64,000 bases of DNA, taken from assembly GCA_031082285.1 (NCBI GenBank), contig JAVHLK010000002.1:62001-126000 (forward strand). The letters run 5' to 3'. The DNA is from Desulfomonilaceae bacterium (GTDB lineage Bacteria > Desulfobacterota > Desulfomonilia > Desulfomonilales > Desulfomonilaceae). The position numbers and the translations under genes were made by a program. Shown one piece after another: positions 1 to 16,140 of this stretch. Position 1 is the stretch's first letter; the number at the start of each line of letters is the position of its first letter. The notes beneath the pieces were generated by a model, which was not told the origin of the DNA, made no database searches, and saw nothing but the letters and a program-made list of their open reading frames with translations.

Positions 1-553
1 TTTCGATAAAGGTTGCCGAGGGATTTTGTGAAAGTATGACCTCCTTCACTTTTTCCGTCGTTTCCCTGTCGGTGGTGTCGACCTTGTTGATGATGAACTT
101 GTTCGAGGCTTCGATCTGTTTTTCCAATGCGACGAAGACCTCGTACTGTTCCAGAAAGTACGCGGCGTCTATCAGACAGTATTTCTCCAATGATGCGAAG
201 TTTCCCTTAAATACGGGATTGAAGAGATCTCTGCCGATATCGGTGGGATTGGCGACCCCGCTGGCTTCCATGACGAGAATGTCCGGCTGGATCACAAAGG
301 CTATTTGATACAACGCTTTGATGAAATCTCCTTTGACGCATGCACAGAATATGGATCCTCTGCTGATTTCGATCATTTCCAGCTCAGGGTTCTCAACGAG
401 GGCTCCGTCGATGCCTTCCTCACCAAACTCATTCATCAGTACCATGAGCTTTACGTCAGGAGGCGTCTCCTTGAGCATGCGATTGAGCAAGGTGGTCTTT
501 CCGCTCCCCAAAAAACCTGAAATCAGGTACACGTGAACTGCTGCTTGAGTCAT
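1..553 (-). CDS. CobW-like G3E-family GTPase (3' end outside window)
   Basis: P-loop GTPase of the G3E/CobW group, predicted metal or cobalamin-related insertase/chaperone. The visible 184 residues show a Walker A motif GSGKTT (about 16-21), a metal-binding C70-x-C72 pair in place of the usual CxCC, an E-x-S-G stretch (96-99) and a NKVD guanine-specificity motif (about 156-159). The start ATG overlaps the stop of the upstream thioredoxin-like gene (ATGA), so the two are translationally coupled. It is the last visible gene of the unit that begins with the selenoprotein at 2250. In this context it probably services the corrinoid or zinc enzymes of the module; the metal is unknown. The C-terminal CobW_C domain lies beyond the window edge. 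Confidence 0.88.
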   Translation of the reverse strand, partial: MTQAAVHVYLISGFLGSGKTTLLNRMLKETPPDVKLMVLMNEFGEEGIDGALVENPELEMIEISRGSIFCACVKGDFIKALYQIAFVIQPDILVMEASGVANPTDIGRDLFNPVFKGNFASLEKYCLIDAAYFLEQYEVFVALEKQIEASNKFIINKVDTTDRETTEKVKEVILSQNPSATFIE

Positions 554-810
554 TTGTCCGCTCCGGATATATACTTTCTGATCTCCGACTCTATTTGCTC
601 CACTGAGATCGCCTTACCGGTGCTGATCACGTTCTCGTCGATTACCAGGGCAGGCGTGACGTAGACCTTCAGGCGAAAGAAGACCTCCTGATCCGTCACC
701 TTTTCCACGGTAACGGCTTCCTCTCCCCCGATCCGCTCGACCGCCTCGACGGCATTCCGATACAGGGTGTCGCAACGTTGGCATCCGGTGCCCAAGACCT
801 GAACCTTCAT
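550..810 (-). CDS. Small thioredoxin-like redox protein (Thioredoxin_3 / redox-active disulfide type)
   Basis: An 86-residue single-domain thioredoxin-fold protein, cytoplasmic, with the active site C10-Q-R-C13 close to the N-terminus (GTGCQRC) and the cis-Pro region VTPALVIDE near residues 51-59. This layout matches the small redox-active disulfide protein 2 family found in anaerobes. The start chosen is the ATG directly before KVQVLGTG; the upstream extension of the frame has no family features. It overlaps the CobW-like gene by 4 nt and follows DUF2284 by 35 nt. It is one of four thioredoxin-like genes in this methyltransferase module, so a role in thiol or selenol reduction is likely but inferred. 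Confidence 0.85.
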   Translation of the reverse strand: MKVQVLGTGCQRCDTLYRNAVEAVERIGGEEAVTVEKVTDQEVFFRLKVYVTPALVIDENVISTGKAISVEQIESEIRKYISGADK

Positions 811-845
811 GGTGCTTTCCTTTTCGGCAGCGTGGGCAATACGCC

Positions 846-1523
846 TCACACAAGAAGAATCATAGAGTAACTGTTGTACGAATCCTTGACACTTCCGGCC
901 AACTCCACCAACCGTCCCAGCCTCCTGACGGTCTGAAACACGTCTATGGAACATGCTTCCACGGACGGTCGCTTCTCGTTGGGAAACTTGCACCTTTCCG
1001 GGTATGAGCACTTCTTGCAGAGGGCGCACGTGTCCGAGGGAAGGCCGAAGGCCTTGTAGTACCCCATCAGGAAGAGCTTCCTTTCGAGCGCAATCGTTGC
1101 CTTCCACTGCCGTATTTGCCGGCGCCGTTTTTCCGTGGAGTTTCGATAAAAATGCTTGTTGTTGCTGCGACCCAACAAGAGCAGAGCCAGTGAGTATTCG
1201 GAAAGAAGCTCTCGTGTGGCGTCCAGGTTCGGTGATGCAGGCGGACAGCACCAGCTCGTATTGTAATTGGCACAACCGTAACGACACTTAAGTCCCACCC
1301 ATCGAGCCGTGACGATCTCCGCGGTGCGGAGCACTCGTGCCTCATCGAACCCCAGGTCCTTGGCCATGCCCTTAATCTCTTCGATGACCTCGGGTTCCAT
1401 CGTGATCGGGATATTGTCGTCCGGTCTGCACGGCATGTCATGGACTTCAACCGAGTCTTCTTCCCTCGCCGCGGTCCCGCATCTCTTGACGTCCCGCCTG
1501 TTCTTGTCCAACACCAGGGCCAT
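846..1523 (-). CDS. DUF2284 predicted metal-binding protein
   Basis: Cys-rich protein of the DUF2284 family, which recurs near corrinoid methyltransferases in anaerobes. The diagnostic segment is CRYGCANYNTSWCCPP, followed by a second Cys cluster (CALCKKC, then C-x5-C) and the usual C-terminus SYSMILLV. These cysteines probably bind an Fe-S cluster or zinc. The start is uncertain: the ATG at 1523 is given because an SD-like GGAGG lies about 18 nt upstream and AAGGA directly before it. ATGs at 1436 or 1400 would also leave the domain intact, and an upstream TTG extends the frame. Biochemical function is unknown. Confidence 0.8.
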   Translation of the reverse strand: MALVLDKNRRDVKRCGTAAREEDSVEVHDMPCRPDDNIPITMEPEVIEEIKGMAKDLGFDEARVLRTAEIVTARWVGLKCRYGCANYNTSWCCPPASPNLDATRELLSEYSLALLLLGRSNNKHFYRNSTEKRRRQIRQWKATIALERKLFLMGYYKAFGLPSDTCALCKKCSYPERCKFPNEKRPSVEACSIDVFQTVRRLGRLVELAGSVKDSYNSYSMILLV

Positions 1524-1598
1524 TCCTTTTCGACTCAAAGCCTCCTCCCTTCCTATCCGAGTTGTAAGGGTAGGTCTCAAACAAGCTCCTACGTGTGT

Positions 1599-1961
1599 TC
1601 AACAGGACGTGACCGCCGTCTTCTTCGTCTCCTCCCGCGCAGACTCGAATTCCATGCTCACACGGGCGGGCACGTTCAGTCCCAATTCCACCTCCGCCGC
1701 CTTGATCATGGCGCTCAAAACCGGACAGCCGGCATGAGACAAGGCTTTCGATCCCTCTATGAATACCCGGTTCCTTCCAATTCCTCTGCTCAGGACGTCG
1801 CCGATTCCCAGCGACCCCATCTCTTTCACCCTGAGAGCGAGGGCTTGAACGGCCTCGCAGCCGGATTCCAGTTCGATGCGTACCGCACGTCCCTCCTCTC
1901 GACGAGCAATAATTCTCGTGACGAATCCGCAGGACCCGGGGTTCACTCTCACCACCGTCAC
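1599..1961 (-). CDS. DUF6951 family protein
   Basis: A 120-residue soluble protein with the N-terminal pattern VNPGSCGF, a central SGCEAV segment and the C-terminal H-x-GCPVLSAMIKA motif, as I recall for the DUF6951 family of small conserved proteins in corrinoid methyltransferase loci. Start is GTG, supported by AAGGAG seven nucleotides upstream; the gene begins 16 nt after the selenoprotein stop. Three conserved-looking cysteines and one histidine could bind a metal. Function is not established; its place between a selenoprotein and DUF2284 suggests an accessory role in the same module. Confidence 0.7.
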   Translation of the reverse strand: MTVVRVNPGSCGFVTRIIARREEGRAVRIELESGCEAVQALALRVKEMGSLGIGDVLSRGIGRNRVFIEGSKALSHAGCPVLSAMIKAAEVELGLNVPARVSMEFESAREETKKTAVTSC

Positions 1962-1977
1962 ACGTCGTCTCCTTTAT

Positions 1978-2250
1978 TCAGGCACTCTGAATGGCCGCCA
2001 TCAATTCTTCCCGAGGCGGGATTTCGCACTGAAATACGATCTGCCCGTCGATGGCCACCGCCGGCAGGCTCCTCGCCTTCAACTCGGCAAAACGAGCCAC
2101 GCCCTCCACTGTACGGAGGCTCCATTCCCGGTACTCAATGTCATCCAAGATGTCTTGCGGCAAACCCTTTACCGCGGCGATCATATAGACGCACGCGTGT
2201 CATTGGGCAAAGTCCGTGACCAAGACTTCTACAACCGGTTTGCGTTTCAT
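1978..2250 (-). CDS. Selenocysteine-containing thioredoxin-like protein (in-frame UGA at 2200-2202 = Sec17)
   Basis: Read through one in-frame TGA, this 90-residue protein aligns without gaps to the complete thioredoxin-like protein at 9196-9588. Residues 14-20 are FAQ-U-HAC here against SVQ-C-AAC there, so TGA falls exactly on the first Cys of CxxC. The following segment (LPQDILDDIEYREWSL against LPKEIQDVIEYKEWSI) and the region LPAVAIDGQIVF are clearly conserved. The ATG at 2250 has a strong SD (AGGAG, 6 nt spacing). The only ATG after the TGA (2184) has no SD and would lose the active site. A SECIS-like hairpin sits at 2157-2175 and a good promoter at 2340-2367. The true stop is also TGA (1978-1980). 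Predicted role: reducing a thiol, selenol or corrinoid partner in the methyltransferase module. Confidence 0.82.
2157..2175 (-). promoter_or_regulatory. Predicted bacterial SECIS hairpin (thioredoxin-like selenoprotein)
   Basis: On the mRNA strand GCGGUAAA pairs with UUUGCCGC (eight pairs including one U-G) around a GGG triloop. Thirty-two nucleotides separate the UGA from the first loop G, within the 16-37 nt range known for bacterial SECIS elements, which need a G in the first loop positions. It lies inside the coding sequence, as bacterial SECIS elements do. Confidence 0.65.
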
Positions 2251-2339
2251 ACGGACTCCTCGATCGAGCGCATCGTTCAAAACAGACTAAGTTTCTAAAG
2301 TTTGGACTGAATTCTAAGAGAACAATCCCTATAGAAACC

Positions 2340-2367
2340 ATTATAATTGCCGTGTAGCTCACGTCAA
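2340..2367 (-). promoter_or_regulatory. Sigma-70-type promoter for the selenoprotein operon
   Basis: Reading the minus strand: TTGACG (-35, at 2362-2367), 16 nt spacer, TATAAT (-10, at 2340-2345, perfect consensus). Transcription would start about 80 nt before the selenoprotein ATG at 2250. With the hairpin at 2438-2467 this separates the 2250-to-1 unit from the RamA-like gene upstream. Confidence 0.65.
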
Positions 2368-2437
2368 GGCCGTGAAGGTCTCGACGCGCGGATTTTCCCG
2401 CTGTACGGGCGTTGATTGAGTACGAGGGAAAAGGGCG

Positions 2438-2467
2438 GGGAAAGGCGATCCCACTCGTGCCTTTCCC
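2438..2467 (-). terminator. Hairpin terminator-like element after the RamA-like gene
   Basis: GGGAAAGGC (2438-2446) and GCCTTTCCC (2459-2467) form a perfect 9-bp stem with a 12-nt loop, 9 nt after the stop codon of the RamA-like gene. On the minus strand the stem is followed by a pyrimidine-rich stretch (CGCCCTTTTCCC) rather than a clean T-run. Confidence 0.5.
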
Positions 2468-2476
2468 GTTCCCCGA

Positions 2477-4585
2477 CTATTTCTGGTGGAGAATCTCCGG
2501 CGGCACCACACCCTCCAGGTGGGGGAACTCGTCTTTCATGTGAGGCACCTGCATGGCTTCCATGAACTGTTGTTGGAAATCTCCCTCTACCGTGAGTTCG
2601 ATGTACTCGACGTTTACGGCAACCCAGTTCGCTTCCTCCCTCTTTTCCCGGTTCAGCAGTGCCGCACGGGCACCGTCTCCGGCCGCGTTGCCCACGGCCA
2701 GCACCCGGTCAAGGTCGCAATCCGGGAAGAGACCCATAATGAGTGCTTTCGTTTTGTCGACATGAGTACCGAAGGCTCCGGCTATCTTGATCACATCGAC
2801 CTTCTCGAGGCCCATCCGGCGCATCATGAGCTTGCAACCCGTGTACAGAGCGCCCTTACCCAACTGGATCTGGCGAACGTCCTTCTGCGTGATTACCACG
2901 TCTTTGCCGATGGACGTCTCGTTTGCCCACGCGATCACGAATTCAGGCTGTTTCGTGTCGGGGTTTTTCCGGTACCGGTTCGACTTCTGACTCTTACTGA
3001 ACCGGCCGCTCTTGTTTATCACTCCCGCTGCGTAGAGTTCCGCGAGCACGTCCAGAATTCCGGATCCGCATATGCCCTTGGTCTTCATCTCTTCGGGTTT
3101 GGAATACGTGCTCCATGCGTCGCGGCCGATGACCTTGTAGTTCACTTCATGCGTTTCGGGGTCGATGGTGATACGCTCGATCGCGCCCGGGGCAGCGCGC
3201 ATTCCATAGCTCAACTGTGCTCCTTCGAGCGCGGGGCCGGTCGCGCAGGAACAAGAGATGAGCTTTTCCTTATTGCCCAGGACAAGCTCGCCGTTGGTGC
3301 CGATGTCAATGAGGAGCTGCATCTCCTCGCCCTTGTACGGTTCCTCTGCGATGAGGACGCCCACATTGTCGGCTCCGACGAATCCGGCCTCATTCGGCAA
3401 TACATGCACGTACCCGGATCGGTTTATTCCAATGCCCAGATCCCGGGCCTTGATGTCGAGACTCCGGTGGATAACCGGAGGGAACGGAGCGAGACCCACG
3501 AATTCGGGGTCAAGCTGCAACATTATGTGATGCATGGCGGTGTTGCCGACGAGCGTCATGTCAAGCAGGTCTTCAGGGGCCAGGCGCAGGTATGTGTCTC
3601 CGTTGCCTCCCGGGTTGCCCGCGACCGCGACCGCTTCTTCGACAACAACTTCTTCCTCGACCTCCGCCCCTTCGCTTATGGAGTCGACGCCGTCCTCGGC
3701 CTTCTTCTTCTTCTTTTTCTTCGGATGAGTGGATTCGCATCCCTGGACGATCAGGCTGTTCAAACCGTCGAACAGGTCCTTGCTCATGGTTTCCAGGCCG
3801 CCGGGATTCATCATGTGGTACGTGATTCGAGCCATGACGTCCTCGCCGTACTTGCACTGGGGGTTCATCATGGAAGTCGTGGTAAAGACTTCCATGGTTC
3901 GCAAGTTGCAGAAGTAAGCCGCCATGGTCGTTGTTCCCACGTCGATGGCCACGCCGTAGCAGTCTTCTTTCTTTCCGGGCCAAAATCGAATGACTTCCTT
4001 GTCCATCCATACTGCCGTCGTGACGGTCCACTTGCCTTCACGAAGGATTCGAGGAAGCGTCTTGAGGGCATGCCAGTCTACGGTGAGACCGGTCAGACCA
4101 TGGTTCGCTTCGAGCACCCGACAGATGCGTTCAAAGTCTCCGGTCGGCTCCTCAAATGACGGCGGCTCCACTTCGACGTAATAGAGCTTCACCGCGGGAT
4201 TCCACTCGATGGGAATATCCCTCGCGGCCTTACTCACCACCTGTTTGCCTGCCCGAGCTTCCTCAGGTACGAAGACGAGCAGATCGCCATGAACTTTGGC
4301 CACGCACCCAAGCCTGTAGCCCTGTGCCTTCTGTTCGGCATTGAAGAACTTGTCCTCTTCCTCCTGCCACTCGCTGACGTTTTCCTTCTTGGACGTGATG
4401 CCGAACTTCTCGAAGAAGCCTTCTTCGATACGTACCTTGCACTTGCCGCAGACCTTCTTTTCTCCGCAGAGCGCCTCTATGTCCACTCCCAGTTGACGGG
4501 ACGCTTCTATCAAATTGGTTCCTTCATCAATCAAGCCTCGGCGTGCCGACGGCTGGAAGATGACCATGTGTTGCTTGTTCTCCAT
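2477..4585 (-). CDS. RamA-like corrinoid reductive activator (2Fe-2S ferredoxin + ASKHA-type ATPase)
   Basis: A 702-residue member of the COG3894 / RACE group that reduces cob(II)amide to cob(I)amide in corrinoid proteins using ATP. The N-terminal ferredoxin domain has C40, C46, C49 and C94. The C-terminal half has actin-like ATPase signatures: IDVGTTT (about 214-220), LVGNTAMHH (345-353), LIDIGTNGELVLG and the glycine-rich IAGAFGTHVD. An unusual low-complexity insert occupies about 285-332: seven consecutive Lys (289-295), then an Asp/Glu/Val-rich stretch. ATG 4585 is chosen because it directly precedes the ferredoxin domain; upstream residues overlap the thioredoxin reductase region. It lies 19 nt after that gene, likely co-transcribed, and should keep the corrinoid protein at 6132-6824 active. 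Confidence 0.9.
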   Translation of the reverse strand: MENKQHMVIFQPSARRGLIDEGTNLIEASRQLGVDIEALCGEKKVCGKCKVRIEEGFFEKFGITSKKENVSEWQEEEDKFFNAEQKAQGYRLGCVAKVHGDLLVFVPEEARAGKQVVSKAARDIPIEWNPAVKLYYVEVEPPSFEEPTGDFERICRVLEANHGLTGLTVDWHALKTLPRILREGKWTVTTAVWMDKEVIRFWPGKKEDCYGVAIDVGTTTMAAYFCNLRTMEVFTTTSMMNPQCKYGEDVMARITYHMMNPGGLETMSKDLFDGLNSLIVQGCESTHPKKKKKKKAEDGVDSISEGAEVEEEVVVEEAVAVAGNPGGNGDTYLRLAPEDLLDMTLVGNTAMHHIMLQLDPEFVGLAPFPPVIHRSLDIKARDLGIGINRSGYVHVLPNEAGFVGADNVGVLIAEEPYKGEEMQLLIDIGTNGELVLGNKEKLISCSCATGPALEGAQLSYGMRAAPGAIERITIDPETHEVNYKVIGRDAWSTYSKPEEMKTKGICGSGILDVLAELYAAGVINKSGRFSKSQKSNRYRKNPDTKQPEFVIAWANETSIGKDVVITQKDVRQIQLGKGALYTGCKLMMRRMGLEKVDVIKIAGAFGTHVDKTKALIMGLFPDCDLDRVLAVGNAAGDGARAALLNREKREEANWVAVNVEYIELTVEGDFQQQFMEAMQVPHMKDEFPHLEGVVPPEILHQK

Positions 4586-4604
4586 TCGCGTGTTTCCTTC
4601 CCTT

Positions 4605-5561
4605 TCACAACGATGACGCGTGGACGGCGCTCGTTCGCAGGTATTGGGCCGCACTTTGTGCAGCCAAGGCCCCGTCCGCGGCCGCGGTAATAATTTGCCG
4701 CAGAGGACTGACTCGTACGTCTCCCGCCGCGAAAACCCCGGGCACGGACGTGTTCAGGTTCCCTCCGGTCACGATGAATCCCTCACGGTCAGTCGTCAGC
4801 GCTCCGGCCAAGAAGTCCGTCACCGGGGCCTGGCCGATTCCTATGAAAACCGCCTCCAACGGCATCGTTATTTCTTCATTGGTGTTGACATTCACGAGGG
4901 TCAATCCGCTCACGTTTCTCCGACCCATTACCGCTTTGACCGATCGGGCGGTCAGGATCTGGGCCTTGGGGTCTTTCATGAACCGATCTACCAGCACGGG
5001 CTTGGCCCGAACCTCGTGCGAGCGGGAAACGACGGTCACCGTATCCGCATGCGGCAACAGGGCAAGCGCGGTGTGAAAAGCCGAGTCGCCCCCGCCGACC
5101 ACTGCGGCGCGGCGCCTCTTCATGGTTCTGAGCAGGGGAGCGTCACAGGTCGCGCAGTAGAACACGCCGTTCCCTGCCGGCTTGTCTTCGCCCGGCACCC
5201 CGAGGCGCCGAGGTCGAGCCCCTGTCGCCACGATCACCGCCCGTGCGGCGTAGTGTGCGGAACCACAGACGAGGCGTTTGGTGTCAGCCGAAAAGTCGAC
5301 ACCGGAAACGGATTCCGGAACAGGTACGGAACCCGTCTCGTCCATGAGCTGCTTTATCCATGACGTCATCAATTCCGCGCCGGTGATTCCTCCCGGGAAG
5401 CCGGGATAATTGTCTACGCGATAGTGCCTGATGACCTGACCTCCGGGGGTATCCCCGCCGATTAATATGATGTTGTACCCCGCGCGATGGCTGTACAGTG
5501 CGGAAGTCAACCCCGCCGGCCCGGCGCCTATAATCGCCACGTCATACGTCATGTCCGTCAT
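4605..5561 (-). CDS. Thioredoxin reductase-like flavoprotein
   Basis: A 318-residue low-molecular-weight thioredoxin reductase homologue. It has the FAD-binding GxGxxG (GAGPAG, 12-17), redox centre C136-A-T-C139, nucleotide-binding GGGDSA and the C-terminal FAD motif GVFAAGDV. The NADPH 2'-phosphate motif HRRxxxR of standard TrxB is replaced by SRSHEVR, so NADPH may not be the donor. Start ATG 5561 has GGAGG about 7 nt upstream and overlaps the stop of the thioredoxin gene by 1 nt (TGATG). It probably reduces the CVPC thioredoxin and, through it, the other thioredoxin-like proteins in this module. Confidence 0.92.
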   Translation of the reverse strand: MTDMTYDVAIIGAGPAGLTSALYSHRAGYNIILIGGDTPGGQVIRHYRVDNYPGFPGGITGAELMTSWIKQLMDETGSVPVPESVSGVDFSADTKRLVCGSAHYAARAVIVATGARPRRLGVPGEDKPAGNGVFYCATCDAPLLRTMKRRRAAVVGGGDSAFHTALALLPHADTVTVVSRSHEVRAKPVLVDRFMKDPKAQILTARSVKAVMGRRNVSGLTLVNVNTNEEITMPLEAVFIGIGQAPVTDFLAGALTTDREGFIVTGGNLNTSVPGVFAAGDVRVSPLRQIITAAADGALAAQSAAQYLRTSAVHASSL

Positions 5562-5860
5562 CAGCGCTCCTCCCGATCGAGAAGGGCCGCATCGATGGCC
5601 CCGCACAGTTCCTCCGGACCGGGTATGGCATCGAACACCAACCTTCCCGCGAACAAGATGGACGGCATGGGAAGAATTCCGCCGTGGATCTTGCACAACT
5701 CCAAGTATCGAGCCGCGTCTCGGGGTCTTTTGGTCTCCACGACACGTACCTCGATTCGGTTGCGGTACCATTCCGCCACATACTCCACCGCGGCTATCGC
5801 ATATTCGCAAGGCACACAGTGCGGACCCTCCGAAACGATCTCCACAAGGAGCGGTTTCAT
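5561..5860 (-). CDS. Thioredoxin-like protein (CVPC active site)
   Basis: A 99-residue thioredoxin-fold protein with active site C15-V-P-C18 after a short first strand and the cis-Pro segment MPSILFAG (about 65-72). Start ATG 5860 follows GGGAG at 7 nt. It is translationally coupled to the thioredoxin reductase gene immediately downstream, which makes the pair a likely reductase/substrate couple. CxPC resembles NrdH/glutaredoxin-like centres, but overall length and context fit a dedicated thioredoxin. The redox partner is inferred. Confidence 0.85.
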   Translation of the reverse strand: MKPLLVEIVSEGPHCVPCEYAIAAVEYVAEWYRNRIEVRVVETKRPRDAARYLELCKIHGGILPMPSILFAGRLVFDAIPGPEELCGAIDAALLDREER

Positions 5861-6131
5861 GTCGTCTCCCAGGGCTTGCGATGCGCCGGTAGTGCTCCGG
5901 TGGTGAGACCGTGAACGACCCGCCGTGACCATGGAGCGGATTGGGCGGCGCAATGCCCGTCCTGATTCCACGCCGTCACACGCGAGCGTAGGCCTAACGG
6001 ACGAGGCTCCGGCGATCGGAGGGCGCAAAAAACCTTCCTGCGTCATCGAGGTTCATCGGCCTGCAGACGAATCCCCTCCGCACCGCTCTCTCCATCTCAT
6101 GAGGTCGGATGTCTCCGTACCAAGAAGCCGT

Positions 6132-6824
6132 TTAGTTCTGTGCGGCCTCTTCACCCAGCTTGCGAAGCTGACCGATCATCTTGATCGCCTCTTGGACCGC
6201 ATTCCCGGCGCTCTCCGCATATCCGTCCGCACCAAAGAGCTTTGCAACGTCTTTGGTAACGGGCGCTCCGCCAAGCATGATGGCCACATCGGGGTTCTTC
6301 TCTTTGATCATGGCAATGACCTTCTTCATTCCCATCATGGTGGTGGTCATCATCGCGGAGAGTGCCACGATCTCCGAGTCGGTCCTGAGTTGCTCTTCGG
6401 CAAACTTCTCCAGGGGTACGTCGCGTCCGAGATCGTGGACCGTGAAGCCTCCCACATCGAACATCATCTTGATGAGGTTCTTTCCGATGTCGTGCACATC
6501 GCCCTGAACGGTTCCTATAACGACCTGCCCCTTGGGTTTGCCTGCGCCGTTCGAATCTTTCTTGAGGTGGGGTTTGAGGATGTCGAGGCCCTTGTACAGG
6601 GCATCCGCGCACATGAGAATCTCCGGAACGAAGTACTCTTGACGGTCGTACAGATCGCCTACGATCTCCATGCCGGCCGCAAGTCCGTTCATGATCGCGT
6701 CGAACGGGTCCAAGCCTTCTTCAAGTGCCGCGGTCGCGTACTCGACTACTCGGTCTTCCTCGTATTCAACGACTCCTTCGGAAAGGTTGTCCAAGATTTC
6801 CTTACGTCTTTCTTCCGATACCAT
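6132..6824 (-). CDS. Corrinoid (B12-binding) protein, MtbC/MtaC/MtgC type
   Basis: A 230-residue methyltransferase corrinoid protein. The N-terminal four-helix cap (about 1-88) precedes a Rossmann B12-binding domain (about 98-225) with the base-off/His-on signature D109-x-H111-x-x-G114 (GDVHDIGKN), the downstream SAMMTTTM segment and GGAPV. His111 should be the lower axial cobalt ligand. Start ATG 6824 is preceded by GGAGG at 6 nt; upstream frame residues are not family-like. It lies 29 nt downstream of the MtaA-like gene at 6854. It should carry the methyl group from a substrate methyltransferase to the MtrH-like or MtaA-like enzymes and be reactivated by the RamA-like protein. Confidence 0.95.
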   Translation of the reverse strand: MVSEERRKEILDNLSEGVVEYEEDRVVEYATAALEEGLDPFDAIMNGLAAGMEIVGDLYDRQEYFVPEILMCADALYKGLDILKPHLKKDSNGAGKPKGQVVIGTVQGDVHDIGKNLIKMMFDVGGFTVHDLGRDVPLEKFAEEQLRTDSEIVALSAMMTTTMMGMKKVIAMIKEKNPDVAIMLGGAPVTKDVAKLFGADGYAESAGNAVQEAIKMIGQLRKLGEEAAQN

Positions 6825-6853
6825 TGGTTTCCTCCGTGCACCCACTCGGTGCT

Positions 6854-7894
6854 TTACACTCTGCCGACGGCAGGCGTCGGTCTTATCCCATATTTGCGGA
6901 CCGTCTTTACCCACATTTCCACGTTTTCCTTCTTGACCTCGGGCCAGAGGTCGCACCCGGGCCAGACCGCATCGACTCCCGCGTCGATACAACCCTTGAT
7001 GACTCCCTCGACCTCAGACGCGTCCATGGTGCAGAATGTGCCGTACGGGTCGAAGTTGCCGAGCAAGATCACCTCGTCACCGATCTTTTTGCGTGTTTCC
7101 GCAAGGGTGTTTTTCTGATCGAAGCTCAGGGCGTCCGCACCGCAGTCGTTCATCAAGTCTACGATCAGGTCCGTACCCCCGCAGATATGCAGGATCTTTG
7201 GGGACTCGAGTTCGGCGAAAATCTTCCGGAGATAAGGCTGAATCAACTGCTTCCACATGCGCGGGGAAAGCAGATCGGTCCCGGATCCCATTTCTCGGAT
7301 GGTAATGTAATCCGTGCCCAAAGCCTGATATCGCTTGGCCACATCAATGACCACGTCAGTCATTTTCTCCATGAAGCCTTCTACTTTTTCCTTTTCCTTC
7401 TTGATGCCTTTGAGCAACACGTCGAGCTCGAAAACCTGGCCCCCCAGGGTGAAGGGACCCAGAACCCAGGAACCCACCGCATATTTCCCGTCGGCGATCA
7501 GTTTCTTGAACGCGTCTTCTACGACGGGCATCCTGGCCTTCGCGGCATAATCGGGGTCAATCTCGATGGATTCGTAGTTGTCCCACTTGCTGGGAACCGT
7601 TGGATAGAGAATGCCTTCGGCATCCGCGTACACCGTGCACCCGCGTCCCATTGCTTCGGGAATCGTGCACATGTCATAGGGGACCACGACCGAATCGAAT
7701 CCGTAGATGTCTGAGGACGTGGAAGCGGAATCCGCGAGGTAGTCGGGCGAACCGTGAACCTCGGCGAACCGTATTCCCATTTTGTCGATGGCCTGAATCG
7801 TTACCATGCCCATTCCGCTGAACACCGGCATGGTGTCGATGGGCTCGCGTTTGAAGAACCTCTTAACCCGTTCTCTGGGGGTCATTTCCGGCAT
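6854..7894 (-). CDS. MtaA-like (uroporphyrinogen decarboxylase family) corrinoid methyltransferase, Cys form
   Basis: A 346-residue protein of the UroD/MtaA/MtbA superfamily, which transfers methyl groups to or from a corrinoid protein via a zinc-activated thiol. Zinc ligands are visible as H236-x-C238 (ILHICGGT) and C314 (WPGCDLWP), the complete family set. It is directly upstream of the corrinoid protein gene (29 nt). ATG 7894 is used; an in-frame ATG at 7885 is possible. It is the Cys/His-complete counterpart of the selenoprotein at 9604-10644, also 346 residues. Whether it acts as substrate methyltransferase (MT1) or thiol methyltransferase (MT2) cannot be told from sequence. Confidence 0.9.
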   Translation of the reverse strand: MPEMTPRERVKRFFKREPIDTMPVFSGMGMVTIQAIDKMGIRFAEVHGSPDYLADSASTSSDIYGFDSVVVPYDMCTIPEAMGRGCTVYADAEGILYPTVPSKWDNYESIEIDPDYAAKARMPVVEDAFKKLIADGKYAVGSWVLGPFTLGGQVFELDVLLKGIKKEKEKVEGFMEKMTDVVIDVAKRYQALGTDYITIREMGSGTDLLSPRMWKQLIQPYLRKIFAELESPKILHICGGTDLIVDLMNDCGADALSFDQKNTLAETRKKIGDEVILLGNFDPYGTFCTMDASEVEGVIKGCIDAGVDAVWPGCDLWPEVKKENVEMWVKTVRKYGIRPTPAVGRV

Positions 7895-7984
7895 GAATCT
7901 GATCCTCTCGTTTTGTTGGTATGTCGGGAGACTCCATCGGATACGCGCCGCACCGGAGTCGTCATTCCCTGGTCGGACCCTGGT

Positions 7985-8932
7985 CTACATTCCCTTCAAT
8001 TGCTCCACGAAGTCCGGGAACAGTTTGTGCAAAGGATGCGTATCGATCTCGGGTAACCTCTTGGTCTCGGAAAATGCCAAGGTGGCGGTGAAGGCATCCG
8101 CCATGGCAACTGCGGGAAATATCCGCTCTGAGCCGGTCATGGGACCCGAAAAGATCATGTCGTGCCACAGCGTGGATGACAGAGCTTCCAGCGCGGCGTC
8201 TGCCGCGGTCCATCCCTTGGAGCCCCACATCTCTTTCGCGGCCTTCCACATGTACGAACCGTTGGAGGGCGCACTACCGCATGGGAATCCCCATTTCTCC
8301 TTAATGAGTTTGTTGGCGATCGAGCACATCGCGGTCGCGGGACCGTTCATCACCGACGTGTCCACAAAGATGCTCTCAAACTTAGCGCCGACCTTTTCAA
8401 TGGCATCGAGCAGCGTTTGAGTCCCGGAGATTCTTCCGGTAGGCATCTGGTCGGCCATGTCAAAAGCCACCAAGAGCACGTGTTTGACGCCGATGGAGGA
8501 GATCTCCCTGATCTCCGTTTCCAGGTCCTTTTCCCAAACCGTGAGGCTGTTGTAGAACATGCGGTCCAGAAGACCTTTTTCCGCGCAATAGGCCGCGGCC
8601 TCAATTTTGGGTTTCATGACCCACGCGTCAATGCAAAACGGCATGTCCGTTACGCCGACCACGAAGTCGATGTACCCCTTCAGTTCGTCACCCTTTGTGC
8701 CGACAATGTCGGCCATCACGGGACAGCCGGTTTCCCGGGCAAGCCTGTCGCAGGTCTGGAGGAGTTCTTGTGCGCGTTTCTCGTCAAACCCCTCCTTGCG
8801 CTTGCCCTCAAATATCTTGTCACCCTTCTGAAATATGGAAGGTACGATTACGGTGGGATATTGGCCCGTTTGGCCGCCGAATTTCACACCGCCGACCTCA
8901 CACACCTTCTGCTCGGTCTCAAATGTAAACAT
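7985..8932 (-). CDS. MtrH/MtgA-like methylcorrinoid:tetrahydro(methano)pterin/folate methyltransferase
   Basis: A 315-residue TIM-barrel protein of the MtrH family (pterin-binding methyltransferases). In bacteria, MtgA-type members move the methyl group from the corrinoid protein to tetrahydrofolate. The N-terminus FTFETEQKV-x-EVGGVKFGGQTGQYPTV and the FPCGSAPSNGSY and FVDTSVMNGPATA segments are family-typical. Start ATG 8932 has AAGGAG 5 nt upstream; the longer frame lacks conserved residues. It lies 90 nt upstream of the MtaA-like gene on the same strand. Its presence suggests methyl groups are fed into one-carbon metabolism (Wood-Ljungdahl direction) rather than to coenzyme M. Confidence 0.9.
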   Translation of the reverse strand: MFTFETEQKVCEVGGVKFGGQTGQYPTVIVPSIFQKGDKIFEGKRKEGFDEKRAQELLQTCDRLARETGCPVMADIVGTKGDELKGYIDFVVGVTDMPFCIDAWVMKPKIEAAAYCAEKGLLDRMFYNSLTVWEKDLETEIREISSIGVKHVLLVAFDMADQMPTGRISGTQTLLDAIEKVGAKFESIFVDTSVMNGPATAMCSIANKLIKEKWGFPCGSAPSNGSYMWKAAKEMWGSKGWTAADAALEALSSTLWHDMIFSGPMTGSERIFPAVAMADAFTATLAFSETKRLPEIDTHPLHKLFPDFVEQLKGM

Positions 8933-9195
8933 TCCAGCTCCTTGTCGAGGCGGGCGGTCCGGCGCACCGGTATCGTCCGCCGAATGTGACGGCTCACGGT
9001 GTTCGCCACAGTCCATGCCGAAGTTCGGAGGTCTCCGACGTTCCCCGGTGAATCCGCCCGCACCTCTTCGGCACGGGAGGATTCGGGGGATGCCGGAGTC
9101 ATGGCCTGGGAACCGTACACGAAGTATCGGTCGTATTTTTCCGGGTATCGCTGCGATTGCAGGACGACGGAGATCCGTCCGAGTCTATCGGAAGA

Positions 9196-9588
9196 CTATT
9201 CCTTTCGCCTCGTATGGGCGCCCGCCTCGGCTCTGGCGAGGTTGGCCTCCAGGTTGTCGAAATCGAAGCCCTTGTCCCGAAGCATCCGGATCGTTGTGGC
9301 AAGCTCGGGGGTGGGAGCCCGTTCCGCCATGGCGTCAATCAGCTCCTCGTACTGGGGTATGATGGATTCGAAGAGGAGATCGCCCTGAATGGCTATGGTG
9401 GGCAACACCTTACCCTTCATCTCGAGGAACTTGCCGATGCCTTCCTTGTTCTTTATGGACCATTCCTTGTACTCGATCACGTCCTGAATTTCTTTGGGCA
9501 AGGCCGCGATCGACTCCATCATGTAACCGCACGCCGCACATTGGACGCTGTCCAGGGTGAGCACGTCTATCTTGATGGTTTCCGACAT
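9196..9588 (-). CDS. Thioredoxin-like protein with C-terminal helical extension (Cys paralogue of the selenoprotein)
   Basis: A 130-residue protein with active site C17-A-A-C20, a conserved LPxxIxDxIEYxEWSIKN block and the cis-Pro region LPTIAIQGDLLFE. About 40 C-terminal residues beyond the fold are mostly helical and charged. It is the complete Cys homologue of the 90-residue selenoprotein at 1978-2250 and shows where the Sec belongs. Start ATG 9588 has GGAGG at 7 nt. It begins 15 nt after the true stop of the selenium-containing methyltransferase, so the two are almost certainly co-transcribed. It may reduce that enzyme's selenol or its substrate adduct; this is inference. Confidence 0.85.
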   Translation of the reverse strand: MSETIKIDVLTLDSVQCAACGYMMESIAALPKEIQDVIEYKEWSIKNKEGIGKFLEMKGKVLPTIAIQGDLLFESIIPQYEELIDAMAERAPTPELATTIRMLRDKGFDFDNLEANLARAEAGAHTRRKE

Positions 9589-9603
9589 GAGCCCACCTCC
9601 TTC

Positions 9604-10644
9604 TTACTTCTTCACCATGTGGTGCGGATACTTTGCGTAGTAGGTGTTGTACCACTCGACGGCCTCGATGGCTTGATCCATGTGTTCCACCGGAACATCG
9701 TAGGGCATGTCTCAGCCGGGTGCGAAGACGTAGCCCGTGCTGCCCCCTGCAGCGAGGGACACGATCGCGTCTTCGCGTGGAGACAGCAGACCAAGGGACA
9801 AGGCCAGGGTGAGTTTCAGGTTGCCGCCGAACCCCACCCCGTGTTTGAGGGCCACATCGCGCACGTAAGGCAGGTTCAGCTGTTCATCGATGGCAAAGCC
9901 GTCGGTCCCGACCTGGGCCACCTCCTCCAAACACTTGGTGGCATCGCCGCAGATGAAGAAGCTCGATACTTTGCCGGCCTTCTTCGTTGCCTGGATGGCG
10001 GGCTGCGTGGCCGGCGTGACGAACTCCCTGAACGTTTCCGGCTTGATCTGCGACGCGACCGGATCGGTTATGGCGATCACGTCGCAACCGATTTCCTCCG
10101 CGTATATCCGTGCGGCTTCTCCGGCCACTTCTCCCGAGAAATCTATGATCTCTTTGGCCAGAGCCTTGTTCTTGTACACATCCGTGAAGATGCGCACCCC
10201 GCGAAGATGACTCGCCAGTGTCAAAGGGCCGCACAGTATGCCATAAAGCGCCGTGTCCGGCAGAGCTTCCTTGACTTTCTTGCCGGCCTCGATGATGACC
10301 GGCCATCTGCCGTCCCCGGGGCCCGGAATCTTGATTCCCGATTCGGCCAAGGTCTTCTTATCCAACGGGTGTCCCGTGATCGAAGGCGGATTGTCCGGCC
10401 ACCATTTGTGTTCGCACCCCATGGATATGGCTTCCACAGTCAGGTCGAACAACAGAGGGATCCCATCGGCCTTGTATCTCTCGGCCGCAAAAATAACGCC
10501 CTTTGCAATCAAGTCCGGGTCCTTGAGAAACTTGTCGGCGGGCTCTCCAATCAGATAGGCGCTGTGGACACCCGAGTACGGGACCCACGGCACCTTTTCC
10601 GTCGGTAGGCCCTTAACGGCATTGATAACGTCCTGCTTTCCCAT
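9604..10644 (-). CDS. Selenocysteine-containing MtaA-like methyltransferase (in-frame UGA at 9712-9714 = Sec311)
   Basis: UroD/MtaA-superfamily methyltransferase. Translation from ATG 10644 (AGGAGG at 5 nt) gives 310 residues ending YVFAPG, then TGA, then 35 more in-frame residues beginning DMPYDVPVEHMDQAIEAV and a TAA stop at 9604-9606. In this family the last zinc ligand is a Cys in the pattern PGCDxxP. The paralogue at 6854-7894 has WPGCDLWP with C314, and both proteins become 346 residues long when TGA is read as Sec. The post-TGA residues match the family C-terminus (P-x-E-x-x-x-x-AIEAV). A SECIS-like hairpin lies at 9683-9697. The H-x-C motif is F230-I-C232, so the usual His ligand is Phe. 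Predicted role: methyl transfer through a zinc-bound or free selenolate; substrate unknown. Confidence 0.88.
9683..9697 (-). promoter_or_regulatory. Predicted bacterial SECIS hairpin (methyltransferase selenoprotein)
   Basis: On the mRNA strand UGUUCC and GGAACA form a perfect 6-bp stem closing a GGU triloop. Twenty nucleotides lie between the UGA and the first loop G, inside the window known for bacterial SECIS elements, and the loop starts with G. Confidence 0.65.
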
Positions 10645-11175
10645 TGAAACCTCCTGGGAGATGGGGGATGTGTGAGAGAGTGACTATGACCTGTTACCCG
10701 CTCGGATCGGCAACGCTTGCCCGGCCTCCTGTCCGGGAGTCCTATTTGCCGTCGGAGCATACAAAGCCTCTGAAATGTTCGGTCAAAGGTTTACCGAAGG
10801 TAAACGCACGTATCGGGCCAGAATGTATCGGGATCCGCTCAGGGATGATGTGAGTCATGCGGACTAAGTTGTTGTTAATGATGAGTCTAAAAGGGGTCGG
10901 GGATCCTGTCAAGGTCTAATAAACATCTATTAAAGTCTAGTTTGCCGCCTCCCCTTCTCCCATCCACCGAACCAAAAAGATCCGCTCAATAAGCCCCCTT
11001 CGTCCACCATCCCCACCCGAAGACATGCGTCAACCCCGCGTGTGAAAATCCATGCATAGGCTTCCCCCAAAAAAAGGAATGCAACGCACTGCCCCCGCGC
11101 TCCTCCCGAGACCCTTGCCGTTCGATCCCGGTCGGGCTCCCGGACACGAAGTAAACAAATAGACAATTCAAGCTC
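10645..11175. other. Non-coding leader and intergenic region between the regulator and the selenoprotein methyltransferase
   Basis: No convincing gene was seen in these 531 bases. The stretch holds a promoter (10884-10912) and, in the resulting long leader of about 230 nt, a perfect inverted repeat GTTTACC-GAA-GGTAAAC (10789-10805). I did not see a cobalamin-riboswitch B12 box (GCCACTG-like). Reading frames at 10930-11183 have no family features or SD and are treated as chance. Confidence 0.6.
10884..10912 (-). promoter_or_regulatory. Sigma-70-type promoter upstream of the selenoprotein methyltransferase
   Basis: Minus strand: TTGACA (-35, 10907-10912, perfect), 17 nt spacer, TAGACT (-10, 10884-10889, 4 of 6). 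It points at the gene starting at 10644 with a leader of roughly 230 nt. It probably drives the 9604-10644 and 9196-9588 genes and perhaps those beyond. Confidence 0.5.
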
Positions 11176-13590
11176 TTATGCAATATCTATCTTCCGCAAA
11201 TAGGCCGCCAGGTTGCGATCTCGGCGCGTCAGTCCCAACTTCCTGCGAATCGAGATCCGTTGCAGGCGAATCGTGTCCGGACTCTTTTCCAGGATGAACG
11301 CGATCTCATCGGTGGTCTTCCCCAAGCGTATCAGCTGGGCCACCTCACGCTCCTTTTCAGACAGTTTGAGGCTTGGGTCTTCGAGGTCCGGTTCCTTTTC
11401 TCTCGCCGCGCCTCCCATGAGTTCCTGGAGCATGAGCTTTGCGTGGCTCTCAACGAGGTTCGGCTTGTTCTTGGACTCCAACACGCGGTAGACGCGCTCC
11501 GTTATCCGTTGAGTCAAATCCATCACCACCTGTTCGCACGCTCGGACACGCTCTTCCTCGGCGTGCCTGAGCAGAGTGCTGAGCGCCGTATTCTTGTCCC
11601 GAAGCTCCTGACTCTTTGCGGTGAGCCTCTCTTCGAGGCGTTTGCGCTCGGTCAGATCGTGACACAGGCCCACGGTTCCGTACGGAGTACCCAAATCGTC
11701 CTTGAGGAGCGCGAACACGGAGAACGCGACGCCGAGACTCTGATCCCCTCGAACAAACTCGTATTCTCCCTTCCAGACGTCGCCGTCACGGAGCACGTCT
11801 CGCGAGGTCTGCTCCAATTGGTCTCCGGTTGTGTTCTGCGTGAGGATGTGAGCGGGTTGTCCGAGGATCTGTTCCTTGCGATATCCGAACATTCGTTCGC
11901 TGGCAGGGTTCCAGTCGATGATGTTGCCGTCGAGGTCGGTGACTATGATGGCTTCATCCATGTGTGAAAACACGTGACGGTATTGGTTGAGATGACGCTC
12001 CTCCCTGCGCATGGCCGTCACATCCTGAAAGAGAAAGCACACTCCGTCCCCGATCCTGCACAACCGGCACCGCAGCAGCACGCGATCGGGATCCTCGGCT
12101 CTCAATCGGAACCGGATCTCGAACTCGCCGTACTTGCCCGTGTCCAGGGCTTCGCACGCGTAACCCAAGAGTTGGTCTCGTGCCTCATCATCAACGAAGA
12201 TCTCCGGCAGACAGCGTCCCGACTGGAATTTCTCGTTCAGCCCCAGCAGTTTCCCTGCAGCCGGGTTCATTGCCGTGCACCTGAAATCCGCGACGGCGCC
12301 CTGAGCGACCCGCACGGGTCTCATGAGGATGAGAGGATGTGGAATGGAGTTGAGCGTCTTGGCTGAAATGGTCTCCGTGGAAACGGTGTCCGCCGTTCCG
12401 GGGTGCTCCTCACGGCCGGCCCCGACCACGGCGATCACCGCGATGTTTTCCGCAGAGCCTGCGTCCACGCGATCCATCACCAGGTGCACTATGGCCGGCC
12501 GGCCGGGTGTTCCCACCGGGGGAAGCGCCTCCTCGCCTCGGCCGGCGCCGCCGGCGACGCCTTCCAGCGTGTGCCGCCATCGCAGCGCAACTTCGGGGGG
12601 GAAGGGCAGATCGGTTATCTTGCGTCCTATCACATCGGCAAGGTCCAAAGAGAGCCCAAGTGCCTGATTGACTAAGGACAGGGCAGTGTCGGAAATCCTC
12701 AGAAAGCCCTTGGCGGGGAGGTACGTGTAGAGCCCCAGCACAGAGGATTGGTACAGCACCTGATATTCGCGGGATTGAAGACTCTCGTACGGATCATAGA
12801 ACAGGGACACGATTTGCCTGGCCTGACCGAGTTCGTCCGGAAGGACCAGGAGCGTCATCGAGAGAGTCACCACGTGATTGTCCGATCTCTTGATTCTGAC
12901 GCGCAGTTCCTTTCGGCCCAACTTGTTGGCCCATGCATCTTCGATCGCACAGAGAAAGGAACCGATGCTGTCGGCATCGGGGAGCAGATTCTGGACCCAT
13001 GCCTGGATGTGAGCCAGCTCCTCCACCGAGTACCCGGTAATTCTTTGGGCTTCCGCATTGCACGCCACAAAAAAACCGTCCCGTCGTATGCTGATCATGC
13101 CCACACTGTCCTGACGGTGCAGCAACGCGAGGAGCGCCTCGGTGCTCTTGCGAGCCATGGCCATGTTGCCGGCCACGCGCTGGGTGAGCTGCGCATAGTC
13201 TTCTCTGGCCTCGACCACCTCCCGGAGCTTTGCCACGCAAGAGATGAGGGGATCCGATCCCGAGGTATGACTGAGCAGGACCGGACGATAGTATCGCGGC
13301 AAATTGAGGCTGCTCCAGGAGAGCCCATGGTCCCCAATGACGATGATCTCGATTTCCGGGTTTATCTGCTTGATTCCCGTGATCAGCGACTTGAGATCCA
13401 TGCCGGTGGGTTTGAGATCGATGACCACGATGAGGTGATGCCTGGGCTGCGCGGCAAGGATCTCCAAGGCGCTCACTCCGTCGGGCGCGGTGGTTATGAC
13501 AAGAGAGTCCGATTCCGAGTGCAGTGCTTCCTGGAGAGTCAGGGATACCGAATCGGATCGGCCGATCCAGAGAAGGTTCTGACTAGACAT
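11176..13590 (-). CDS. Multi-PAS sensory regulator with C-terminal LuxR-type HTH
   Basis: An 804-residue cytoplasmic regulator with no transmembrane segment. Domains in order: a receiver-like N-terminus (about 1-125, with VVIDLKPTGMDL around the phospho-Asp position), three or four PAS-type segments (clear ones include the FFVACNAEAQRITGY region and AIIVTDLDGNIIDWNPASERMFGY), a coiled coil near SQELRDKNTALSTLL, and a LuxR/GerE HTH at the end (LSEKEREVAQLIRLGKTTDEIA). The start at 13590 is chosen over a further in-frame ATG at 13641 because AAGG precedes it at 6 nt and the receiver-like fold begins there. Its position upstream of the methyltransferase block suggests it controls that block in response to a small ligand, redox state or a phospho-signal. 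Confidence 0.85.
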   Translation of the reverse strand: MSSQNLLWIGRSDSVSLTLQEALHSESDSLVITTAPDGVSALEILAAQPRHHLIVVIDLKPTGMDLKSLITGIKQINPEIEIIVIGDHGLSWSSLNLPRYYRPVLLSHTSGSDPLISCVAKLREVVEAREDYAQLTQRVAGNMAMARKSTEALLALLHRQDSVGMISIRRDGFFVACNAEAQRITGYSVEELAHIQAWVQNLLPDADSIGSFLCAIEDAWANKLGRKELRVRIKRSDNHVVTLSMTLLVLPDELGQARQIVSLFYDPYESLQSREYQVLYQSSVLGLYTYLPAKGFLRISDTALSLVNQALGLSLDLADVIGRKITDLPFPPEVALRWRHTLEGVAGGAGRGEEALPPVGTPGRPAIVHLVMDRVDAGSAENIAVIAVVGAGREEHPGTADTVSTETISAKTLNSIPHPLILMRPVRVAQGAVADFRCTAMNPAAGKLLGLNEKFQSGRCLPEIFVDDEARDQLLGYACEALDTGKYGEFEIRFRLRAEDPDRVLLRCRLCRIGDGVCFLFQDVTAMRREERHLNQYRHVFSHMDEAIIVTDLDGNIIDWNPASERMFGYRKEQILGQPAHILTQNTTGDQLEQTSRDVLRDGDVWKGEYEFVRGDQSLGVAFSVFALLKDDLGTPYGTVGLCHDLTERKRLEERLTAKSQELRDKNTALSTLLRHAEEERVRACEQVVMDLTQRITERVYRVLESKNKPNLVESHAKLMLQELMGGAAREKEPDLEDPSLKLSEKEREVAQLIRLGKTTDEIAFILEKSPDTIRLQRISIRRKLGLTRRDRNLAAYLRKIDIA

Positions 13591-13693
13591 GCACACCTTC
13601 GAGGGTGAGATTTCATGATCGCGGCCTTGCAAGATTGACATCGCATTCAGCTCAATTTATCATAACACGTTTTATTTCTTTCGAGGTGCCGCG

Positions 13694-14221
13694 ATGGCCG
13701 AGACAGGCAAAATTCAGGTTTTCACCGGTGAGGGGAAGGGCAAGACCACAGCCGCCTTGGGGCTCGCATGGAGAGCCATAGGCCGTGGCCTGAAAGTCTT
13801 TATGGTTCAATTCTTGAAAGCGCCGGACACCTCTGGAGAACACTTCGCAGCTCACGCGTTTGCTCCCATGATGACCATCAAACCAATGGGCCGAAAAGGA
13901 TTCATTCGCAGACGCGGCTGCGAACCGCTCGATACGGTCATGGCCGAGCTCGCTCTGGAAGAGGCCCGTACTGCCATGCTGAGCGGCGAATACGACGTCA
14001 TCATCCTTGATGAGATAAACGTCGCAGTGAACCTGGGCATTATTGACGTGAAAGATCTCTTGGAGTTCATGGACGCAAAGCCTGAGAACATCGAACTCGT
14101 GCTCACCGGCCGGTATGCACACCCTGAGGTGGTGCTTCGGGCCGATGTAGTACTTGAGATGAGAAAGATCAAACATCACTTCGACGAGGGTGTCCCGGCC
14201 AGGGAGGGAATCGAGTACTGA
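13694..14221 (+). CDS. cobO: Cob(I)yrinic acid a,c-diamide / cob(I)alamin adenosyltransferase (CobA/CobO/BtuR type)
   Basis: A 175-residue ATP:corrinoid adenosyltransferase that makes the Co-C bond of adenosylcobalamin. The P-loop is G12-E-G-K-G-K-T-T19. Other signatures are DEINVAV (Walker B region), ELVLTGRYA and the C-terminal IKHHFDEGVPAREGIEY, so it is complete and of normal length. ATG 13694 follows GAGGTG by about 5 nt. It is divergent from the PAS regulator with only about 100 bp between the starts. The location supports corrinoid-centred metabolism. A degenerate paralogue lies at 24679-25170. Confidence 0.95.
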   Translation: MAETGKIQVFTGEGKGKTTAALGLAWRAIGRGLKVFMVQFLKAPDTSGEHFAAHAFAPMMTIKPMGRKGFIRRRGCEPLDTVMAELALEEARTAMLSGEYDVIILDEINVAVNLGIIDVKDLLEFMDAKPENIELVLTGRYAHPEVVLRADVVLEMRKIKHHFDEGVPAREGIEY

Positions 14222-14649
14222 TTCCGGGCACGGGCCGGCGGGGATGACCACACCCGCGCACAATCATCTGCTCGCACATTCGTAAAGGATCGTTAATCCC
14301 GTACGTTCGATAGTCTTGCGGGGAGGGGCTTGATGCGGGCCGACGTTCGGCCCCCTTGTTGCAGCCGGTGATTTATTTTGCAACACGGCGCCGGTTCGCT
14401 TCCAGAGTGAGTTGTTCCCTCACGGCCCTGTAGCGTATCAATGCGCGTGTTTTACAACGCGACACGTTGTTGGACAGGTCCAGGGGAGCTAAGGATCCGG
14501 AAGTCATCGGAATGGCAAGGAATTAACCCAGCCGATGGTTATGGCACGCTATTTGCTAAAAGCATTTCACGCGGCGCCCAAAACTACGGTCGGTTCACGC
14601 CGATCCAAGGGCGGACCAGACGCGAGAAATCAGAGAGGAGGACAGAATC
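14222..14649. other. Intergenic region with hairpin and sigma-54 promoter
   Basis: No gene supported in 428 bases. A short perfect hairpin GGGCCGA-CGT-TCGGCCC (14337-14353) lies about 115 nt after cobO and could end its transcript, although the following CCCTTGTT is only weakly T-rich. A sigma-54 promoter lies at 14542-14557 and a GAGAGGAGG SD precedes the ATG at 14650. Confidence 0.6.
14542..14557 (+). promoter_or_regulatory. Sigma-54 (RpoN) -24/-12 promoter
   Basis: TGGCACG, 4 nt, TTGCT: the GG (-24) and GC (-12) dinucleotides are separated by exactly 10 nt and every conserved position matches the RpoN consensus. It lies 93 nt upstream of the BON-like gene at 14650 and so implies control by an unidentified bacterial enhancer-binding protein. 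Confidence 0.75.
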
Positions 14650-15000: not shown

Positions 15001-15296
15001 GGGATTCGATGAGACGGAATCCGATCCGGTCTTTATTTCGGTTCATTCCTATTCTCCGAGAGGGGTCGGGAGAGTGCCGTGCTCACGGGTGTAAAGGCGT
15101 GTGATGTGAAGCATCAACTTTGGGTGGGGTCGCTGCCGTTGAACGGACTCAGTTCCGACGGAGCCTCGAAATACGACGGCAACCCTTTCCGAGACCCGTC
15201 GCGCGAGAGGCCGCCCCCCGTATAACGAGCCCATGTGTGTAATTATTGTGCTTGACGAATTGTCCGGTTTCTGGAAAATGCAACCGGGAGGAGCAA

Positions 15297-16097: not shown

Positions 16098-16140
16098 GCG
16101 GACAATTGTATAATCCGGCTGAACGTCTCGTCGGCCGGGG

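Follow-up and report, generated by a model that had tools for sequence, protein, structure and literature searches.

A selenocysteine-containing MtaA-superfamily protein and its conserved thioredoxin partner in a corrinoid methyltransferase gene block of a Desulfomonilaceae bacterium

Several described corrinoid methyltransferase systems use proteins of the UroD/MtaA superfamily. The aromatic O-demethylases (MtvB, OdmB, VdmB, MtoABCD) and CdmBCA combine a UroD-family substrate methyltransferase (MT1) with a corrinoid protein and an activator, MtoA being an MtrH-like second methyltransferase (MT2). Type 1 mlp clusters (PMC10418091) and SdmABC of Methanococcus voltae combine several MtaA-like proteins with a single corrinoid protein and a Ram activator, with soft-ligand (S/Se) sites and a link to selenium. 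Here we describe a related gene block, with a selenocysteine (Sec)-containing MtaA-superfamily protein and several thioredoxin-like (Trx) proteins, at the left end of a 64,000-nucleotide stretch (the window; positions 62001–126000 of contig JAVHLK010000002.1) from the 5.6-Mb draft genome of a Desulfomonilaceae bacterium (assembly GCA_031082285.1). The block lies wholly on the minus strand and encodes, in order of transcription, a PAS/LuxR-type regulator, UroD1 (with Sec), TrxA, an MtrH-like protein, UroD2, a corrinoid protein, TrxB, a thioredoxin reductase-like protein (TrxR), RamA, TrxC (with Sec), DUF6951 and DUF2284 proteins, TrxD and CobW. Every component listed in a preliminary description of this DNA was found in place, and our data support its central proposal, that of a module for corrinoid methyl transfer which depends on Sec and has a thiol/selenol relay of its own.

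The nearest published relatives of the block are the type 1 mlp clusters. As in these, at least two Mlps, a corrinoid protein and a Ram activator are encoded in one direction with gaps below 2 kb (UroD1, UroD2, corrinoid protein and RamA, within 2477–10644), but type 1 clusters by definition have no tetrahydrofolate (H4folate) methylase within 20 kb (PMC10418091), whereas an MtrH-like gene lies here at 7985–8932. Their proteins moreover have His-Cys-Cys sites, as opposed to the Phe-Cys-Sec of UroD1, and the thioredoxin relay is an addition of the present block. The Mto/Odm/Mtv layout of UroD-family MT1, corrinoid protein, MtrH-like MT2 and activator (arrangement as in PMC8630106) is also present. 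UroD2 nevertheless has S-type His-Cys-Cys ligands, where O-type enzymes have carboxylates in place of Cys, or no zinc, and the literature consulted on O-demethylases and CdmBCA mentions neither Sec nor dedicated thioredoxins. Among the methylcobamide:coenzyme M methyltransferases MtaA and MtbA, MtaA has the known structure (4ay7) closest in fold to UroD1 and UroD2, yet both proteins score under the NCBI family cut-offs, UroD1 lacks the His ligand and carries Sec, and MtrH and the relay stand alongside. Glycine and betaine reductase systems likewise have a Sec enzyme served by thioredoxin and thioredoxin reductase, but in this block the enzyme with Sec has the TIM barrel of UroD proteins and is encoded near a corrinoid protein; a system of that type was rejected, since no Pfam or NCBIfam match to GrdA or GrdB was found among the block proteins scanned. 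Also rejected was the dichloromethane mec cassette, with which UroD and corrinoid parts are shared; in the available part of its description (PMC9768040), thioredoxins are named only with sarcosine/glycine reductase clusters.

UroD1 (9604–10644; 346 residues when read through UGA; PF01208, E=4.5e-49) has an in-frame UGA at codon 311 (9712–9714), and TrxC (1978–2250; weak PF13192 match, E=1.4e-4) has one at the first position of its redox motif (2200–2202), a placement shared by 29 matches. Among UroD1 homologues collected by searching 395 genomes of the phylum and a named genome collection, codon 311 is TGA in 56 of the 59 close ones, the remaining three having Cys, Cys and Thr, and the equivalent residue is Cys in 30 of 30 distant ones. 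A hairpin resembling a selenocysteine insertion sequence (SECIS), TGTTCC-GGT-GGAACA (9683–9697), lies 15 bases after the UroD1 TGA, with a three-base loop that is mostly GGT or GGC across homologues; its counterpart in TrxC (2157–2175) has an 8-bp stem and a GGG loop. Because a free-energy test on 48-nt windows separated Sec regions poorly from the rest of their own genes, we adopted a test of pairing at fixed positions in which codons are redrawn synonymously. By this test, the five inner pairs of the UroD1 hairpin form in 48 of 56 Sec genes as against 7% expected, and in just 1 of 33 Cys/Thr homologues, while a TrxC hairpin of at least 6 bp forms in 23 of 29 UGA loci (79%, again versus 7%). 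If the UGA codons were plain stops or sequencing errors, the frame beyond them would be untranslated, and a bare in-frame TGA that costs UroD1 no more than its C-terminal 34 residues might be so read. We give this almost no credence and rejected it on the hairpins and on the changes past the UGA in close pairs, which are biased towards synonymous ones (8 to 2, 7 to 0 and 3 to 0); TGA moreover recurs at one codon in 56 homologues from many assemblies, with Cys in all distant ones, and the source genome encodes SelA and a tRNA-Sec with a TCA anticodon. Both UGA codons are thus real Sec codons.

The UroD1 profile matched the MtaA structure 4ay7 with E=5e-41, and both UroD1 (167.8 bits) and UroD2 (193.7 bits) far exceed the curated PF01208 cut-off of 23.9, placing them in the UroD/MtaA superfamily; neither reaches the cut-off of 235.4 for the MtaA/CmuA family TIGR01463 (130.4 and 202.6 bits respectively). 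Motif alignment with the zinc ligands of MtaA puts Sec311 on the C-terminal ligand Cys316, whereas Cys232 corresponds to the middle Cys and Phe230 takes the place of His237. Phe230 and Cys232 are invariant in all UroD1 homologues examined, as is Glu254, 22 residues past Cys232, which is also the spacing of the MetE glutamate ligand. The putative metal/thiol site is Cys232-Glu254-Sec311, with Phe in place of His; Cys77 was weighed as a third ligand and discarded, since the Desulfofundulus group has Leu there. Since UroD2 and a third family, UroD3, retain the His-Cys-Cys site of MtaA-type thiol methyltransferases and UroD1 has Phe-Cys-Sec instead, UroD1 is a distinct family, and its Sec stands where a metal ligand is presumed. 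Cys forms of this broad family occur in Firmicutes, Bacteroidota, Planctomycetota and KSB1. The closest named relative of UroD1, 92% identical and in an identical gene order, comes from a metagenome-assembled genome labelled Desulfomonile tiedjei.

TrxA (9196–9588; TLDS-CAAC; profile match to thioredoxin 1fo5, E=2.8e-5) lies directly downstream of UroD1 in all 56 Sec loci and in 29 of the 30 distant Cys loci, the sole exception being cut by a contig end, and in two genomes (G306, G014) UroD1 and thioredoxin matches fall within one open frame. Across the 395 genomes, UroD1 occurs in 11 and the TLDS-CxxC TrxA family in 10, all among those 11, and it was seen only beside UroD1. The TrxA motif is always CAAC or CAPC, and CxxC was present in 80 of 86 matches; TrxA is predicted to be a thioredoxin-fold partner with a CxxC site. 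TrxB homologues read UIPC or CxPC, and the TrxC motif is UxxC, or UASG in some second copies; UASG proteins, having Sec without a resolving Cys, were noted at five loci (L051, L054, L058, L077, L091), in most of them beside normal UxxC copies. The redox genes as chance neighbours were rejected, as the pairing is conserved across loci. The neighbourhood survey suggested in the preliminary description, which would have counted non-conservation of the redox genes against the module, thus came out in its favour (56 of 56 Sec loci; 10 of 11 genomes).

It is UroD1, and not the methyl-transfer core, that the redox genes follow. The source genome has a paralogous cluster on contig C88 with genes for the PAS regulator, UroD1, MtrH, UroD2, corrinoid protein, RamA and DUF2284, where Thr occupies the Sec position of UroD1 and thioredoxins are missing. 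(In the regions 6547–16480 of locus L005 and 1085–6149 of L034, C88 carries this cluster, its RamA broken by an assembly gap, and, several kb away, a separate set of UroD/MtaA-like, MtaB-like and corrinoid protein genes; another close corrinoid protein is encoded on C221, at 10383 of L139.) At two further loci (L024, L046), which form a Cys clade, UroD1 has Cys and thioredoxins are likewise lacking. In the tree, this clade and the Thr paralogue are two separate state changes inside the Sec clade, each matched by thioredoxin loss. Of the 395 genomes, 32 encode a close homologue of the corrinoid protein, and eight inspected loci with the close MtrH-UroD2-corrinoid-RamA core but no UroD1 had no such thioredoxins. 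These eight loci and the C88 cluster argue for assigning the redox genes to UroD1, so that the relay, described earlier as part of the whole system, is conserved with UroD1 but does not form part of the core. Most core loci without UroD1 (L140–L147) carry another MtaA-like UroD protein, UroD3, with His-Cys-Cys. Some of them also encode a GlcD-like oxidase or an ATP-binding cassette transporter of the branched-chain-amino-acid type, a hint that their methyl donor differs.

We thus view the block as two joined units, a core (UroD2, MtrH, corrinoid protein, RamA, DUF6951, DUF2284) and a module comprising UroD1-TrxA-CobW with TrxB, TrxC, TrxD and TrxR, for which we infer the chemistry, direction of methyl flow, acceptor, electron path and metal loading as follows. 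The core is read as MT1-corrinoid-MtrH-RamA, the arrangement of the Mto and Odm systems (PMC8630106, PMC13222342): a UroD-family MT1, probably UroD2, would methylate the corrinoid protein, MtrH would hand the methyl group to H4folate and RamA would reactivate cobalt. UroD1 may move methyl groups onto or off the corrinoid protein by thiol- or selenol-type chemistry, independently of the original methyl donor. TrxR would feed TrxA through the other thioredoxins (TrxD, TrxC, TrxB), and TrxA would keep Cys232 and Sec311 reduced or reduce a Cys-Sec bond formed in turnover, while CobW may load the metal. That UroD1 and its relay form such a largely substrate-independent thiol/selenol-type methyltransferase module, kept reduced from within, is a reading to which we assign about an even chance.

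Its proposed donor independence is argued from the varied neighbourhoods of UroD1-TrxA, which shares its strand with MtaB (two loci of Clostridia, L105 and L110), MtmB (L087), MttB (L086), formate-H4folate ligase (fhs; L097, L099 and L100) and a homocysteine methyltransferase (L119). Cultured carriers include Desulfatitalea alkaliphila, Desulfospira joergensenii and Desulfofundulus thermobenzoicus. In Desulfospira joergensenii (L085), it is accompanied in 21 kb by only thioredoxins and CobW, with no corrinoid gene nearby. In Pelotomaculum propionicicum (L077, 4166–18406), UroD1-Trx shares its strand with genes for sulfoacetaldehyde acetyltransferase, Etf-like, acetate-kinase-like and OsmC-like proteins and an exporter of the TauE type, so that this propionate syntroph may link the module to organosulfonates. 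Several Clostridia-type loci (L047, L048, L049, L092) have GcvH-like and DGC-domain proteins beside the module, with lipoyl synthase in L048 and L049, suggesting a lipoyl dithiol instead of some thioredoxins.

These neighbourhoods bear on the possibility that the MT1 of the system is Sec UroD1 itself, which would demethylate a methyl-S, methyl-Se or methyl-metalloid substrate, with the relay reducing the substrate or the active site. MtaA/Mlp relatives do act on thiols, ClMlp2 methylating selenide (PMC10418091), and core clusters that lack UroD1 have UroD3 in its stead, as though the two were alternative substrate enzymes. TrxD resembles ArsE-type proteins, DUF2284 occurs in ArsM selenoprotein fusions, and the sulfoacetaldehyde acetyltransferase and TauE-type exporter of Pelotomaculum could be seen in the same light. 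We nonetheless consider it rather unlikely, given that MtaB, MtmB or MttB beside the module already supplies MT1, that the module stands without corrinoid genes in L085, that Phe replaces the zinc-ligand His across the whole UroD1 family and that UroD2, with its site intact, is available as MT1. The absence of MttB and MtaB from the block had been taken earlier to suggest that the Sec enzyme may act on the substrate. This step is not supported, as a UroD-family MT1 with an MtrH-like MT2 is a known O-demethylase arrangement (PMC8630106, PMC13222342), and the claim that a substrate methyltransferase is missing is itself weak, because UroD enzymes fill that role and UroD1-Trx also occurs beside MtaB, MtmB and MttB.

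Selenolates and zinc thiolates oxidise easily, and the thioredoxins, TrxR and CobW might do nothing more than mend oxidised Sec and Cys and load metal after exposure to oxygen, with no role in turnover. Metallochaperones include COG0523 GTPases such as ZigA, whose model is weakly matched by the CobW of this block. Other UroD methyltransferases with equally oxidation-prone sites, UroD2 included, nevertheless manage without a dedicated thioredoxin, and the TLDS-CxxC family is confined to the UroD1 neighbourhood and at times fused to UroD1; we judge a role in repair only to be improbable. We hold as very unlikely a bolder proposal, that UroD1 is the first of a class of redox-coupled corrinoid methyltransferases. 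Here the corrinoid protein would give up its methyl group to Sec311, or to a thiol bound at that residue, displacement by Cys232 or by the CxxC of TrxA would follow, and TrxR would reduce the resulting Se-S or S-S bond in each cycle. If true, thiol-disulfide chemistry would drive methyl transfer, and the methyl group would depart either bound to a thiol or in the form of a reduced C1 product.

Some observations weigh against the donor-independent module that we favour. The Thr gene of C88 and the thioredoxin-less Cys variants are intact, which means that Sec and thioredoxins are dispensable in some settings. Thioredoxins are retained with Cys forms in facultative lineages, as would fit simple thiol maintenance. 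Finally, MtaB, MtmB or MttB adjoins UroD1 in only a minority of loci.

The remaining genes were assigned as follows. The PAS/LuxR-type regulator that heads the block (11176–13641; 821 residues; Pfam PAS and GerE) has orthologues that likewise stand first in the paralogous cluster on C88 and in core clusters lacking UroD1. The MtrH-like protein (PF02007, E=2.5e-53), which exceeds the cut-off of the NCBIfam MtrH-family model NF002142, is a probable methyl-corrinoid:H4folate MT2. UroD2 (6854–7894; PF01208, E=5.6e-57) has its HIC and PGC ligands aligned to MtaA, and the corrinoid protein (6132–6821) matches PF02310 and PF02607, with 204.6 bits for TIGR02370, under the cut-off of 215.3. TrxB (about 5561–5860; CVPC) is related to the HUIPC selenoproteins, whose model NF047660 it matches with E=1.4e-24 (86 bits, under the cut-off of 105); TrxA and TrxC match it more weakly, the window copies thus all scoring below the cut-off, and TrxB homologues elsewhere read U-I-P-C. 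The TrxR-like flavoprotein (4605–5561) matches PF07992 and TIGR01292 (307 bits, under the cut-off of 343). RamA (about 2477–4585; PF14574, PF17651, PF17650 and PF00111) is a RACo/RamA-type reductive activator of the corrinoid protein, with a low-complexity insert in its mid-region (window 3570–3720; KKKKKKK, then an acidic run), similar to one in the C88 paralogue. DUF6951 (1599–1961; PF22263, E=2.8e-23) is present too in core clusters without UroD1, and DUF2284 (about 846–1493; PF10050, E=6e-43) is a putative metal-binding protein. TrxD (550–810; CQRC) is a Thioredoxin_3, MTH895/ArsE-like protein (PF13192, E=2e-18) exceeding the TIGR00412 cut-off, and CobW, a COG0523 GTPase (1–553; PF02492 and PF07683), runs past the left edge of the window, the complete protein having 335 residues (L004, 13546–14553). 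Adjoining the block is a divergent gene for a corrinoid adenosyltransferase (13694–14221; CobO/BtuR, PF02572). Beyond it, a 116-residue open reading frame (14650–15000) and a cytidylate-kinase-like protein (15246–16097; PF13189) seemingly have a similar C-terminal segment (LAA-VKTSL...YP, LPGVDEVRV-like), by eye only. A search of the window at the Rfam gathering threshold gave no match.

A 2026 review of 119 prokaryotic selenoprotein families (PMC13188914) includes NF047660 (HUIPC), the family related to TrxB, but no UroD or corrinoid methyltransferase of the UroD1 kind, with Sec at the position of a zinc-ligand Cys. A Sec UroD1 is nonetheless carried by a Delta 1 symbiont of Olavius (L069), from a host lineage with a much-searched selenoproteome. 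The near-invariant partner thioredoxin offers an entry point to a methyl-transfer module that has gone unrecognised in sulfate reducers, clostridia, Planctomycetota and Bacteroidota. We know of no corrinoid enzyme of methanethiol production, and the module may be relevant to the ways in which anaerobes pass the methyl groups of methanol, amines, methoxy compounds or organosulfur compounds on to thiols, including the production of methanethiol.

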